Assembly: GCF_002778315.1 (NCBI RefSeq)
Contig: NZ_NESA01000004.1
Span: forward strand, 124,001 to 188,000
DNA: 64,000 bases
DNA from: Limnohabitans sp. JirII-31
Lineage (GTDB): Bacteria; Pseudomonadota; Gammaproteobacteria; Burkholderiales; Burkholderiaceae_C
Direction of reading: 5' to 3'
Part shown: positions 47,157 to 54,802 of the stretch, in pieces
How positions within the stretch are numbered: the first letter of the stretch is position 1
Layout of the letters: each line of letters starts with the position of its first letter
Program-made: the position numbers and the translations under genes
The notes under the pieces: model-generated
Databases searched by the model: none
Told to the model about the DNA's origin: nothing
The model's input: the letters and a program-made list of their open reading frames with translations, nothing else

Positions 47157-48209
47157 TCAGTCTACTTTGGCGCCGCTGGCCTTGACCACCCGTTCATAGG
47201 CCGACAACTCAGACACCATGAACTGGCCAAAGGCCTGCGGCGTGCTGGGTGCAGGCTCGGCCATCAACACCGCGAAACGTTGCCGTGTTTCGGGCGCGTT
47301 CAAGGCTTGGGTGAAGGCGAGGTTGAGGCGCTCAATCACTGCTGTGGGCGTGCCTGCGGGTGCCACCAGGCCCCACCAGGTGTCAACCGAGAAGTTGCTC
47401 AGTGTCTCGGCCACGGCGGGCACATCGGGCATGTGGGGGCTGCGTTGGCGTGTGGTCACGGCCAGTGCCAGCAACTTGCCGCTCTTGATGTTGGGGGCTG
47501 CGGTGGCCAGGTTGTCGAAGTTGAAATCCACCTGGCCCGACAGCAGCGCCAGCTGCGCGGGGTTGCCCCCGTTGTAGGGAATGTGCACCGCAAAAATGCC
47601 GGCGCGGGCTTTGAACAATTCACCCGCCAGATGCCCGGCGCTGCCGTTGCCCCCCGAGCCAAAGTTGAGTTGCCCCGGATGGGCCCGTGCGTAGCGCAGC
47701 AAGTCGGCCAGCGAGGCAATCTGCAAGCGTTGGGCGGTGGCTGCGTTCATCACCAGCACGTTGGGCACGCGCAGCATTTGGGTGATGGGCGAAAAGTCGT
47801 TGGCCGCGTTGTAGGGCATGCGGCTGTAGAGCCAGGGGTTCACCGCATGGGTGGCGGTTGCGGCAATGCCGATCACCGAGCCATCAGGCGTGGCCTTGGC
47901 CACGGCGTCAGCGCCGATGTTGCCGCCAGCGCCCGGTCGGTTGTCGATGATCACCGGGCCCAAGGTGTCTTTGACGCGCTCGACCAGGGCGCGTGCCGTC
48001 ACATCAATGGGACCGCCTGCGGCGTAGGGCACGATCAAGCGGATGGGCTTGGTGCTCGGGGCTTGGGCCATGACCGCCATGGGCAGCAGCAGCGCGAGCA
48101 GCAGGTGCAGCTTTGAGCGTGCTTGAAGGGGCTGTGGTGGGTGCTGTGGTGGGTGCTGTGGGTGCGCCCGCGTGATGACGTGCAGGCGAGGGCGCGAGGT
48201 GTGAAACAC
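47157..48209 (-). CDS. Bug/TctC family periplasmic solute-binding protein
   Basis: A 350-aa binding protein. A Pro/His-rich N-terminal stretch precedes a hydrophobic signal ending PMAVMAQA; the mature part opens KPIRLIVPYAAGGPIDVTAR and has DNRPGAGGNIGAD. The GTG at 48209 is chosen because a TGAGG site lies just upstream and the upstream gene stops at 48218; the longer frame reads into that gene. The N-region is unusually long (about 35 residues) for a Sec signal, so a later start is possible. Confidence 0.88.
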   Translation of the reverse strand: MFHTSRPRLHVITRAHPQHPPQHPPQPLQARSKLHLLLALLLPMAVMAQAPSTKPIRLIVPYAAGGPIDVTARALVERVKDTLGPVIIDNRPGAGGNIGADAVAKATPDGSVIGIAATATHAVNPWLYSRMPYNAANDFSPITQMLRVPNVLVMNAATAQRLQIASLADLLRYARAHPGQLNFGSGGNGSAGHLAGELFKARAGIFAVHIPYNGGNPAQLALLSGQVDFNFDNLATAAPNIKSGKLLALAVTTRQRSPHMPDVPAVAETLSNFSVDTWWGLVAPAGTPTAVIERLNLAFTQALNAPETRQRFAVLMAEPAPSTPQAFGQFMVSELSAYERVVKASGAKVD

Positions 48210-48217
48210 AAGCCGCC

Positions 48218-49225
48218 TCAGTCGATGCGAGCGCCTGAGCGCTGGATGATGGGCGCCCACTTTGCGGACTCTTGGGCAATCAACTGAGTGAACTGCTCAG
48301 GCGTGCCGCCCACCGGGTCGAGGCCTGCGTTCTTCAAGCGTTCGCGCACTGCGGGGTCGTTCAAGGCGGCGTTGAGCGCGCTGTTGATGCGATCGACCAC
48401 CGCACGCGGTGTGCCCGCAGCCACCAACACGCCATTCCAAGCCAGCGCTTCAAAGCCTTTGAGTTCAGGCACGCCGCTCTCCGCCACGGTGGGCACATCG
48501 GGCAGCAGGGCGTAGCGGTGTGCGCTGGTGACGGCCAGGTATTTCAAGCGACCTTGTTTGACTTGCGGCGTGAGCGCGGTTGGCACCGAGGCCATGAGTT
48601 GTGTTTGCCCCGCCACCGTGGCCAGCACGGCAGGCGGGCTGCCGTTGAAAGGAATGTGCACGGCAAAGGTGCCGGTGACGGCCTTGATGTATTCCATCGT
48701 CAGGTGCGACGCACTGCCGTTGCCCACCGAGGCGAAGTTGTATTGGCCGGGGTGCTGTTTGAGCTGGCTCACCAATTCACGCATGGTGTTGGCCGGGAAC
48801 TGGGCGTTGGCAGCAATCACATTGGGTTGCGAGGTGGTGATCATCACCGGCTGCAAGTCGCGCAGCGGTTGGTAGGGCAGCTTGGGGTAGAGGTGCGGGC
48901 CAAAGGCCAGCGGGCCGTTGTACGACATGACCCAGGTGTGGCCGTCGGGCGCCGATTTGGCCACCTCGGCGGTGCCCAGCGTGCCGCCCGCCTGCGGCTT
49001 GTTGTCCACCACCACGGCTTGGCCCAGGTGGTCTTTGAGGTGTTCTTGCATGGCACGCGCAATCACGTCCAGTGACGAGCCCGCGGGCGCCACCACCACC
49101 CAGCGGATGGGCTTGTTGGGAAAGCTCTGTGCCCACCCACTGAGCGCGGTCATGCCCACGGCCCAAATGAGCAGCAGACGAGCCAGAGGGCGTGCGTGGG
49201 TGTGGGCGTGCAATGGGTGGAACAT
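48218..49225 (-). CDS. Bug/TctC family periplasmic solute-binding protein
   Basis: A 335-aa binding protein with signal segment LARLLLIWAVGMTALSGWAQ. The mature N terminus reads FPNKPIRWVVVAPAGSSLDV, where the usual FPAGG loop is APAGSS, so the carboxylate-binding loop is altered, and DNKPQAGGTLG follows. It is 8 bp upstream of the next Bug gene, forming a tandem pair. No TctAB genes are adjacent, so it may serve the TctBA at 6953 or one elsewhere. Confidence 0.92.
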   Translation of the reverse strand: MFHPLHAHTHARPLARLLLIWAVGMTALSGWAQSFPNKPIRWVVVAPAGSSLDVIARAMQEHLKDHLGQAVVVDNKPQAGGTLGTAEVAKSAPDGHTWVMSYNGPLAFGPHLYPKLPYQPLRDLQPVMITTSQPNVIAANAQFPANTMRELVSQLKQHPGQYNFASVGNGSASHLTMEYIKAVTGTFAVHIPFNGSPPAVLATVAGQTQLMASVPTALTPQVKQGRLKYLAVTSAHRYALLPDVPTVAESGVPELKGFEALAWNGVLVAAGTPRAVVDRINSALNAALNDPAVRERLKNAGLDPVGGTPEQFTQLIAQESAKWAPIIQRSGARID

Positions 49226-51234: not shown

Positions 51235-52260
51235 TCAGTCGAACTTGATGTTGCCCGCCTTGATGGCCTTGGCCCAACTGGCGGTATCGCGTTCCAACAG
51301 CTTGGTGGTGTTCTCGGGCGTGAGGTAGCGCACTTCCACACCGGCGGCATCGGCGCGTTGCTTGGTGTCAGGCGACTCCATGCTGCGCTTGACTTCTTGC
51401 GAAAGCTTTTGCACCACCTCTTTGGGCGTGCCTGCCGCTACATACAAAGCCACCCAGGATTCCAGCTCAAAGCCGGGCAAGCCCGCCTCAGACGCTGTGG
51501 GCACTTGCGGCAGTTGGGGGTGACGGGTTTTGCCAGTGACAGCCAGCGCTTTGAGCTTGCCGCTGAGCACATGGCCCATCACCGAAGGGGGTGTGGAGAT
51601 GAACACTTGCACTTGGCCCGCCAGCACGTCTTGGATGGCTTGGCCCGAGCCTTTGTAGGGCACATGCGTCATCTCAATACCGGTTTGCTGTTTGAAAATT
51701 TCGGTGCCAATGTGCGACACCGAGCCGTTGCCTTGCGACGCATAGTTCACCTTGCCGGGGTTTTGTTTGACCCAGGCGATGAAGTCTTTCAGGTTGTTGG
51801 CAGGCACTGAAGGGTGAACCGCAATGACGTTGGTGGCCACGGTGATCAAGCCCACGGGCGTGAGGTCTTTGAGTTCCCAGGGGAGCTTGTCCATCAGGAT
51901 CGGGTTGGCAATGTGGTAACCCGAGTAAGACACCAGCACGGTGTAGCCATCTTTCGGGCTGCGTGCCACCAGCGAGTAAGCCAGGTTGCCGCTGCCGCCG
52001 GGTTTGTTGTCCACCACCACCGACTGGCCTAGTGCGCGCGCCAGTGGGTCGCTGAGCAAACGGGCCGAGGTGTCCAACAAACCGCCGGGTGGGTTAGGAA
52101 CCACCAGGGTGATGGGTTTGCTGGGGTAGGTGTCTGCCTGCACTTGAGCAGGTAACGCAACGATGGCGCATAAGCTGGCAGACGCCAGCAGTGTGGACAC
52201 GACGCGGCGCGTGAAATCGCTCGTGGGTTGGCGGGTGGTGTGGGGCAGGGGGTGTGTCAT
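51235..52260 (-). CDS. Bug/TctC family periplasmic solute-binding protein
   Basis: A 341-aa binding protein with a signal ending LPAQVQADTYPS. The mature start is SKPITLVVPNPPGGLLDT and DNKPGGSGNLAYS is the second loop. It follows the Old Yellow Enzyme gene by 19 bp on the same strand, suggesting co-expression; a substrate reduced by that enzyme is possible (inference). Confidence 0.93.
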   Translation of the reverse strand: MTHPLPHTTRQPTSDFTRRVVSTLLASASLCAIVALPAQVQADTYPSKPITLVVPNPPGGLLDTSARLLSDPLARALGQSVVVDNKPGGSGNLAYSLVARSPKDGYTVLVSYSGYHIANPILMDKLPWELKDLTPVGLITVATNVIAVHPSVPANNLKDFIAWVKQNPGKVNYASQGNGSVSHIGTEIFKQQTGIEMTHVPYKGSGQAIQDVLAGQVQVFISTPPSVMGHVLSGKLKALAVTGKTRHPQLPQVPTASEAGLPGFELESWVALYVAAGTPKEVVQKLSQEVKRSMESPDTKQRADAAGVEVRYLTPENTTKLLERDTASWAKAIKAGNIKFD

Positions 52261-53416: not shown

Positions 53417-53441
53417 AAAAATGCCTGCGATCGCGGCAGGC
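53417..53441 (-). terminator. Rho-independent terminator after the N-x-Q repeat gene
   Basis: On the minus strand, GCCTGC (53436-53441) pairs with GCAGGC (53423-53428) across a 7-base loop, followed by a T run (53417-53421). It lies between the stop of the repeat gene at 53503 and the ATG of the next gene at 53401. Confidence 0.8.
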
Positions 53442-53502: not shown

Positions 53503-54666
53503 TCAAGGCAGCTTTTGCTCAAAGTCAGTCAAGCGGTCATTCAGGTTGTCGACGTTGTGCTTGATGCCCAATAACCGACGCTGAAATGCTGCCGCAGCTT
53601 CTTCATGCTTGAGCTTTTTTTCTTCAGCGGTCAGGTTTGTGTGAGAAGGTGCGTCTGCCGACGAGCCCTGCGTGGGGTAGGTGTTTGTTTTGCTGGCAGC
53701 CTCGTGAGAAGCCGCGCTGGAAGGGGAGGCTTCGTCAGAAGCAAATGGGACCTGGGCGAGGGCAGTCTTTGCGCTCGGTAGCTTTTCCAAATGGTCAGCT
53801 ATTTTTTCTGCGTCGATCGCTTGGTGGTTGTCTGACAGCGCCGCCCCTTGGTCAACAGCTGTCGGATAGGCCTCTACTTGGAGCGTAGGGATCGGCTGCT
53901 CGTTGGTGCTGAATGCTTGGGTCAGACCTGGTTGACGGTTTGGCGCAGACACTGCATTGCTCAGGGCTTGTCGGTTGATGCCGACATCGTCTGTGGGCAC
54001 TGCTTGGCGATTGGACTCAGAACCTGCGGTGTCGATCACGACACGCGTGTCATCCAGCGTGTCTTGGGGGATGCCTTGTTTGTTGTCAGAGATCACCTCG
54101 TTGACGGGAACGTTTTGAACGTTCGATCCGGCAGTTGGAGCACCCGTGACCGCTTGTCGGTTGTCGGACTCGAGCTGACCCTTGCCGAGACTTTGCAGGT
54201 TGTCTTTGAGCGTTTCAGTCGGCAAAGCTTGCTTGTTAGCAGCGATGACCTCTGTGCTGACGTTTTGAACGTTGGCAGAGGTCGGCGCTGTTGTCGCGGT
54301 GGTTTGACGGTTGGTACCGATCAGGTCGTCTTGCGCAATCGCTTGACGATGGTCTTGCATCGAGTCGATGTTCACGTCTTGCTTATTGGGGGCAAGTACC
54401 GTGATGGGAACGTTCAAGACGTTGGCTTTGGCACTGTCTGACGCGGGGACTGCCACAGCGTTGGCGGGTTGCTGCGGGGTTTTGTCTTGTGCGGTGTCGG
54501 TGGAGACGTCGTGGACGTGGTCAAACGCTAATTTGCGTTCACGTGTTTCTTCGGGGTGAGAAACGACAACATTCTTCGGGGTTTTGGCATTGCCAGTGTG
54601 TTCGGAGACCGAGACATGGTGCTCAGAACCGCTGCGTACTACGAAGTCGGGGAAATCGTCGTTCAT
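53503..54666 (-). CDS. N-x-Q tandem-repeat protein of unknown family
   Basis: A 387-aa acidic protein with no Cys, no Trp, no signal peptide and no membrane helix. Residues 1-80 are low-complexity and polar. Residues 82-291 are about 17 degenerate units of 12-13 residues starting N-x-Q, such as NKQALPTETLKD, NRQAVPTDDVGI and NRQALSNAVSAP; NV(L/Q)NV recurs at 82, 132 and 182 and N-R-Q at 119, 169 and 219, a 50-residue higher-order repeat. A Ser/Ala-rich linker then leads to a charged helix (about 345-385). The ATG at 54666 is chosen; a longer frame would enter tRNA-Leu. It may be a solenoid or a flexible binding array; no family is recognised. Confidence 0.7.
   Translation of the reverse strand: MNDDFPDFVVRSGSEHHVSVSEHTGNAKTPKNVVVSHPEETRERKLAFDHVHDVSTDTAQDKTPQQPANAVAVPASDSAKANVLNVPITVLAPNKQDVNIDSMQDHRQAIAQDDLIGTNRQTTATTAPTSANVQNVSTEVIAANKQALPTETLKDNLQSLGKGQLESDNRQAVTGAPTAGSNVQNVPVNEVISDNKQGIPQDTLDDTRVVIDTAGSESNRQAVPTDDVGINRQALSNAVSAPNRQPGLTQAFSTNEQPIPTLQVEAYPTAVDQGAALSDNHQAIDAEKIADHLEKLPSAKTALAQVPFASDEASPSSAASHEAASKTNTYPTQGSSADAPSHTNLTAEEKKLKHEEAAAAFQRRLLGIKHNVDNLNDRLTDFEQKLP
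53794..54423 (-). repeat. Coding tandem repeat array (12-13 residue units, 50-residue super-repeat)
   Basis: The array encodes residues 82-291 of the repeat protein. Three consecutive 150-bp blocks (starting 54423, 54273 and 54123) share the order NV-x-N-V, NKQ, then a third unit, then NRQ. Within a block the units differ; between blocks the equivalent units match better, as expected if a four-unit block was duplicated. After the third block single 12-residue units continue. Confidence 0.75.
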
Positions 54667-54717: not shown

Positions 54718-54802
54718 TGGTGCCCGGGGCCGGAATCGAACCGGCACGCCTTGCGGCGGGGGATTTTGAGTCCCCTGCGTCTACCAATTTCACCACCCGG
54801 GC
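54718..54802 (-). tRNA. tRNA-Leu (anticodon CAA)
   Basis: The minus strand folds as a class II tRNA. A 7-bp acceptor stem pairs GCCCGGG with CCCGGGC, discriminator A, and CCA is encoded (54718-54720). The anticodon stem-loop has CTCAAAA in the loop, giving CAA, which reads UUG, the common leucine codon in this genome. GGTTCGATTCC is the T arm and a long variable arm is present. The 5' end is 22 bp from the cysM start on the other strand. Confidence 0.96.

Follow-up and report, generated by a model that had tools for sequence, protein, structure and literature searches.

N-x-Q repeat proteins of Limnohabitans as candidate disordered, multivalent scaffolds

Introduction

PopZ and CsoS2 are bacterial scaffold proteins which are disordered and multivalent and have a helical end for self-association. 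Another kind of repeat architecture is built on carboxamide ladders, which give a periodicity of fixed Asn and Gln residues along with hydrophobic ones. In our study, a 387-residue protein (P0001) encoded in a 64,000-nucleotide stretch of the genome of Limnohabitans sp. JirII-31, referred to here as the window, has been examined. A first-pass annotation made from the letters of the DNA had described it as an array of about 17 N-x-Q units arranged in a 50-residue super-repeat, and had proposed an intracellular scaffold or binding array rather than an enzyme.

Results

The gene of P0001 occupies positions 53503..54666 of the window and lies on the minus strand, an orientation which the first-pass annotation had left unstated, with the ATG at 54666 and the stop codon at 53503-53505; a plus-strand reading of the same interval is ruled out by stops inside the frame. 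In alignment, the N-terminus of P0001 lines up with the MNDD/MQDD-type starts of its relatives. A tRNA-Leu (CAA) gene is located at 54718..54802 on the same strand, 51 nt 5' of the ATG. Across the genome collection, tRNA-Leu(CAA) was found upstream and on the same strand in 19 of 23 related loci, and in 17 of those 19 it stands 39-68 nt before the start. In L085 the first ATG of the frame is 96 nt away and the start which aligns with the other members 216 nt, and in L083 the distance is 359 nt. The exceptions are L082, a locus rearranged in one lineage, where the tRNA is found about 4 kb off and on the opposite strand; L089, a second copy within one genome; and the remaining two loci (L090 and L092), which are contig-end fragments without the tRNA. 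The repeat gene may be co-transcribed with tRNA-Leu(CAA).

Farther upstream and divergent is the gene of a pyridoxal-phosphate enzyme (PALP), which we take to be cysM-like. On the downstream side an intrinsic-terminator-like hairpin followed by a T tract is present 3' of the gene at 53423..53441 (minus strand), and past it lies an NADH:flavin oxidoreductase gene. Four such terminator-like sites occur in the region on both strands against 2.8 expected from shuffles, so this one counts as weak evidence. Further downstream, three minus-strand genes of one blast cluster (c0) stand close together at 47160-48080, 48221-49225 and 51238-52260; presumably they encode TctC solute-binding receptors. The position of the gene at tRNA-Leu raised the idea of a mobile element, which was rejected: the most regular relative of P0001 (L002) found no match when searched against plasmids, none of the 310 pattern stretches in IMG/VR was confirmed, and most of the loci compared share their downstream genes.

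The repeat array extends over residues 82-291 (53794..54423, minus strand) and comprises 17 register positions. The earlier count of about 17 units thus holds for the register, whereas an exact N-x-Q is found at only 13 of these positions (residues 94, 119, 132, 144, 156, 169, 182, 195, 219, 231, 243, 255 and 280) and the other four are degenerate (NVL at 82, HRQ at 106, TRV at 207 and a position without the motif at 267/268). The NV-x-N-V segments at 82, 132 and 182, and the NRQ motifs at 119, 169, 219, 231 and 243 together with NEQ at 255, are present as had been described. The 12-residue period is exact over residues 219-255, but the array as a whole mixes spacings of 12 and 13. Three copies of the 50-residue super-repeat were delineated on the minus strand, covering residues 82-131 (54274..54423), 132-181 (54124..54273) and 182-231 (53974..54123).

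In 20,000 shuffles of the whole protein, N-x-Q occurred 2.09 times on average and 10 times at the maximum, and 13 was never reached; the nine N-x-Q spacings of 12 or 13 residues seen in P0001 were likewise attained by none of the 20,000. Comparison of residues 81-300 with themselves gave z = 5.6 at lag 12 and z = 5.0 at lag 50. In 1000 shuffles, the top z at any lag from 5 to 79 had a 95th percentile of 3.4 and a maximum of 4.75; both lags exceed this maximum, so that the periodicity stands clear of shuffled sequence. Chance or an open reading frame artefact is ruled out by these shuffles along with the existence of relatives at the same tRNA locus.

The statement that no known family has this pattern is borne out in the libraries searched (Pfam, NCBIfam, PDB and PHROGs). 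With P0001, Pfam returned nothing significant, the only entry being Nitroreductase at E 0.54, under the cut-off, and TerB (PF05099) was not found up to E 10; NCBIfam gave no match, and the best hit among solved structures in the PDB had an E value of 1.3. PHROGs gave best entries of unknown function for both P0001 (E 0.17) and L002 (E 0.029). Among phage records, L002 found a single weak match, to a Halorubrum virus hypothetical protein (26% identity, E 1e-3). The titles and abstract openings covered by a literature search contained nothing on an N-x-Q repeat.

The genome of JirII-31 has one copy of the repeat gene. With P0001 as query, 15 of 61 genomes were matched, its own included, and all of them are Limnohabitans. 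Profile A1 matched 75 of 84 Limnohabitans genomes and 37 of the 40 good-quality ones, a count which takes in genomes matched via TerB fusions or other repeat proteins; no match to this profile was found in nine Limnohabitans genomes, three of which (G035, G017 and G545) are at least 95% complete. The genome sets outside Limnohabitans are samples of the family, order and phylum and not whole groups. In the family samples, the protein of a relative matched 4 of 299 genomes, profile A2 matched 6 of 399 and the repeat profile A3 matched 5 of 399 (missing G549, of the same genus); every one of these is Limnohabitans, which for A2 means one genus out of 141. The phylum-wide search recovered the own genome alone out of 398, and the order-wide search with L002 gave two of 200, namely the own genome and one weak match, L039 (E 4.6e-4). 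L039 was rejected as a family member from outside the genus, as its DNA reads as an apparently unrelated gene, presumably of a flagellar hook-associated protein. The N-x-Q family is real, restricted to the genus in the samples searched, and cannot be assigned to a known family by these searches.

A set of 37 distinct open reading frames was collected in which [N/D]-x-Q motifs stand 12, 13, 24 or 25 residues apart four or more times; three of these frames are TerB fusions and some are cut by contig ends. Successive motifs are spaced by 12 residues 361 times and by 13 residues 142 times. The 12-residue unit reads N, any residue, Q, a small residue, I/V/L (92%), G/P/A, any residue, D/E (62%), any residue, I/L/A/V, any residue and D/A. 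From 8 to 30 N-x-Q motifs are present per frame, and even relatives which are 71-80% identical differ in unit number (for example 19/16, 25/20, 20/24 and 24/27). The unit is thus conserved while its copy number varies, which the first-pass annotation had named as support for a functional array. The strongest period varies by lineage: 50 stands out in P0001, L064 and L065, nine members have 37 as their leading period, the leading periods of other lineages are 24, 25, 61 or 62, and in L008 a period of 49 is second to 12. The 50-residue super-repeat is therefore real in P0001 but is a lineage-specific duplication and not the unit of the family.

Outside the array, conservation is concentrated at the two ends of the protein. 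The N-terminal motif covers residues 12-34 (SGSEHHVSVSEHTGNAKTPKNVV; 54565..54633, minus strand), in which S12, G13, V20, S21, E22, T24, G25, N26, A27, K28, P30, K31, N32 and V34 are invariant in seven aligned members. The C-terminal helix that had been suggested earlier is predicted by AlphaFold2 at residues 347-385 (53512..53628, minus strand), with ten-residue block means of 87-96 from residue 351 on. The residues F361, L365, I368, V372, L375, L379 and F382 of this helix follow a 4-3 spacing, as expected for a coiled coil, and F361, R364, I368, K369, V372, N376, L379 and E383 are invariant in 24 aligned members; the helix may self-associate.

The rest of the chain is predicted to be largely unstructured. 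The AlphaFold2 models of P0001 (24 alignment rows) and L002 (11 rows) have mean pLDDT values of 47.4 and 46.1 and pTM values of 0.19 and 0.18, respectively. The array blocks score 36-44 in P0001 (residues 81-280) and 31-49 in L002, with strands in neither, and the C-terminal helix appears in both (residues 347-385 and 344-387), with block means of 84-96 past its first residues. A further helix at residues 39-51 of P0001 is of low confidence (53-57). As the alignments are shallow and repeats misregister, a real fold of the array could be missed by such models. By charge and hydropathy the array of P0001 is borderline (boundary 0.07 versus |R| 0.06). The protein has neither Cys nor Trp, as had been noted; it is polar and acidic (pI 4.97) and rich in Ala, Asn, Gln, Asp, Ser and Thr. 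No hydrophobic stretch was found in P0001, N-terminus included, the top 19-residue Kyte-Doolittle mean being 0.78, and the protein is probably cytosolic.

The strictness of N and Q and the hydrophobic residues at positions 5 and 10 of the 12-residue unit would also suit a beta-solenoid or a stack between chains, in which carboxamide ladders of N and Q hold together a structural filament or a functional amyloid-like assembly. We consider this unlikely, as no strand was predicted in the two arrays modelled, that of the most regular member included, although at low confidence (mean pLDDT 46-47). Moreover, the spacing is 12 or 13, Pro or Gly is often found at position 6, degenerate units are placed inside the array, and nothing in Pfam matches significantly, its curated solenoid and curli repeats included.

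The constraint on N and Q was measured in the 14 most similar of the 190 pairs among 20 type-A proteins; these pairs are 71-80% identical and involve 13 sequences. P0001 is at most 41% identical to its relatives and so is in none of the 14 pairs, and its conservation is deduced from that of the relatives. The motif N was changed at 4 of 258 sites (1.6%) and the motif Q at 3 of 258 (1.2%), whereas elsewhere in the middle regions of the same pairs N was changed at 70 of 194 sites (36%) and Q at 59 of 182 (32%). When only sites without a gap within 15 columns are considered, the motif figures are 2 of 160 for N and 0 of 165 for Q, whereas N and Q elsewhere were changed at 40 of 120 and at 27 of 97, respectively. 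Along the unit, positions 1 and 3 change at 1% and the other ten at 20-36%. Some sequences enter more than one of the 14 pairs, which are therefore not independent, and the motif sites were taken from the N-x-Q of a single member of each pair, which brings some bias; the contrast is too large to come from either, but the precise values call for a cautious reading. Synonymous differences are present at 33% of the kept N codons and 15% of the kept Q codons, so the DNA is not frozen. The ends also change less than the rest, at 12% of residues for the N-terminal 36 and 20% for the C-terminal 48.

These rates bear on two other explanations. P0001 may be a hydrophilic stress protectant or an entropic spacer, LEA-like or hydrophilin-like, in which composition matters and not the motif; its polar and acidic character, the lack of Cys and Trp and the low-confidence array fit such a protein. 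It would, however, predict neither the retention of motif N and Q against a 36% and 32% change elsewhere nor the strongly conserved ends, and it is quite improbable. Alternatively, the unit may be a selfish or drifting repeat which replication slippage expands without any function of its own. Copy number and super-period do vary by lineage, and near-identical tandem units are seen in some relatives (L007 and L015). Yet no tandem array of 36 nt or 150 nt was detected in the DNA of the P0001 gene, which has one weak 12-nt match, and still N and Q are present, so that the repeat appears to be old and maintained at the protein level. Together with the strong positional constraint in the relatives, this makes pure drift highly improbable.

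The same repeat is also carried by other proteins of the genus. In Limnohabitans TerB fusions, two TerB-like stretches precede an N-x-Q array (all four scanned), and the TerB domain scored 39-60 bits against the Pfam cut-off of 24.4 in each of these four fusions from relatives. The fusion of Limnohabitans sp. Jir61 as query matched 55 of 84 Limnohabitans genomes, some of them via the repeat or a short TerB-like frame alone. Its best 30 loci (L131-L160), one per genome, were examined with flanks of up to 1.5 kb, and nine such loci also in 19-kb views (L161-L169). A histidine-kinase gene is present in the flank of 21 of the 30 and neither kind of kinase in nine, a figure which comes without a background rate of kinase neighbours and from related species, some loci being cut by contig ends. 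Seventeen of the flanking kinases are of one kind, upstream and co-directional in the loci checked, and four are of a second kind, three of them divergent; kinase and response-regulator domains were confirmed by Pfam in one example of each kind. In one locus without a kinase neighbour (L144, seen as L167 in a 19-kb view; L167:4534-14079), the TerB/N-x-Q gene follows hrcA, and the same stretch has genes for an NAD kinase, an SMC/RecN-like protein and a RelA/SpoT protein. In 13 of the 30 fusions the 19-residue window of highest hydrophobicity follows the array on its C-terminal side, where it could be a membrane anchor, and in the other 17 it falls within the TerB region. In the genome of JirII-31 there was no TerB match, and the Jir61 fusion found the P0001 gene alone.

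Two further types of standalone protein were found. Type B (L122-L124, and L125 by position) begins with MATPPPLIRS or similar, and its neighbours are genes of a CNNM/CBS protein and of a B12-binding-domain protein (by blast clusters in four of four loci, by Pfam on L122 only), the latter possibly a light or cobalamin sensor. Type C (L126:6447-7919 and L127:6136-7680; MSENKPFIVRNDTPHNVEVV) lies beside a gene which we take to encode a Kup potassium transporter. The profile of the type-A C-terminal helix matched all four proteins given to it, two of type C and two of type B, with domain E values of 2e-12, 2.5e-12, 3e-10 and 9e-8. Against the TerB fusions the same coil profile reached 20 of 30 at E 10 or below, the best at 0.011, as compared to 3.3 for the best unrelated frame and 5.1 for the best shuffled one, which is suggestive only of a homologous coiled coil. 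An N-terminal motif common to types A, B and C was rejected: the three look alike by eye, but the type-A N-terminal profile did not recover B and reached C only at E 4.7, below unrelated frames. Jir61 also has an extra small N-x-Q protein on the minus strand of L186, a frame of 254 residues with few units, whose C-terminal helix is similar by eye.

Discussion

The reading that we favour, at about even probability, is that P0001 is an intracellular, largely disordered and multivalent scaffold, oligomerised by its coiled coil and using N-x-Q as a recognition motif. The C-terminal coiled coil of about 3.5 heptads would gather several chains and so multiply the arms, and the conserved N-terminal peptide would serve as one docking site. 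The middle would then be a flexible string of about 17 short linear motifs of the form N-x-Q-small-[ILV]-x-x-[DE]-x-hydrophobic-x-x, each unit a weak site that is recognised through its N and Q. Copy number would set the avidity or the reach, and would drift between lineages. A binding array rather than an enzyme, as had been proposed, is what we infer from the variable copy number and from N and Q being nearly fixed within a fast-changing region that is predicted to be unstructured.

The array of such a scaffold probably recruits a partner common to the scaffold and the TerB proteins, because the TerB proteins, many of them beside sensor kinases, carry the same repeat. This kinase neighbourhood suggests a common ligand with a part in signalling or in stress physiology, which may be situated at the membrane. 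As no TerB protein is detectable in the genome of JirII-31, the signalling link is not essential to P0001, and the scaffold must work without it. It can be speculated further, as a tentative and somewhat doubtful possibility, that N-x-Q is the ligand motif of a Limnohabitans-specific system in which one receptor reads the scaffolds of types A, B and C as well as the kinase-linked TerB proteins. If true, array length would tune both the site at which a common client gathers and the strength with which it does so.

The family, which the searches made here left unassigned, belongs to a freshwater genus from which named isolates exist. Its sequence rule is sharp, with N and Q fixed and the remaining positions free to change, and the number of units varies in nature. 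It thus offers a clean natural test of the relation between motif number and function in a disordered chain. The second home of the repeat, in TerB proteins beside sensor kinases, gives a starting point for finding that function.

In comparison with the known systems, P0001 resembles curli and other functional-amyloid repeat proteins in the short period of its units and in their conserved Asn and Gln, whereas it differs from them in having no significant Pfam match, no signal-like N-terminus and no predicted strands. The TerB (PF05099) proteins with N-x-Q arrays share with it the same 12-residue repeat and the same genus, although P0001 itself is without the TerB domain. Unlike PopZ and CsoS2, it has its own N-x-Q unit, a restriction to one genus and a place at a tRNA-Leu locus, and no Pfam or PDB match. 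With these two scaffolds it would nevertheless have in common a short conserved N-terminal motif, a long, repeated and disordered middle, a segment for self-association and multivalency. Of the readings considered, the one in which the N-x-Q family works like the known disordered scaffolds is the most probable.
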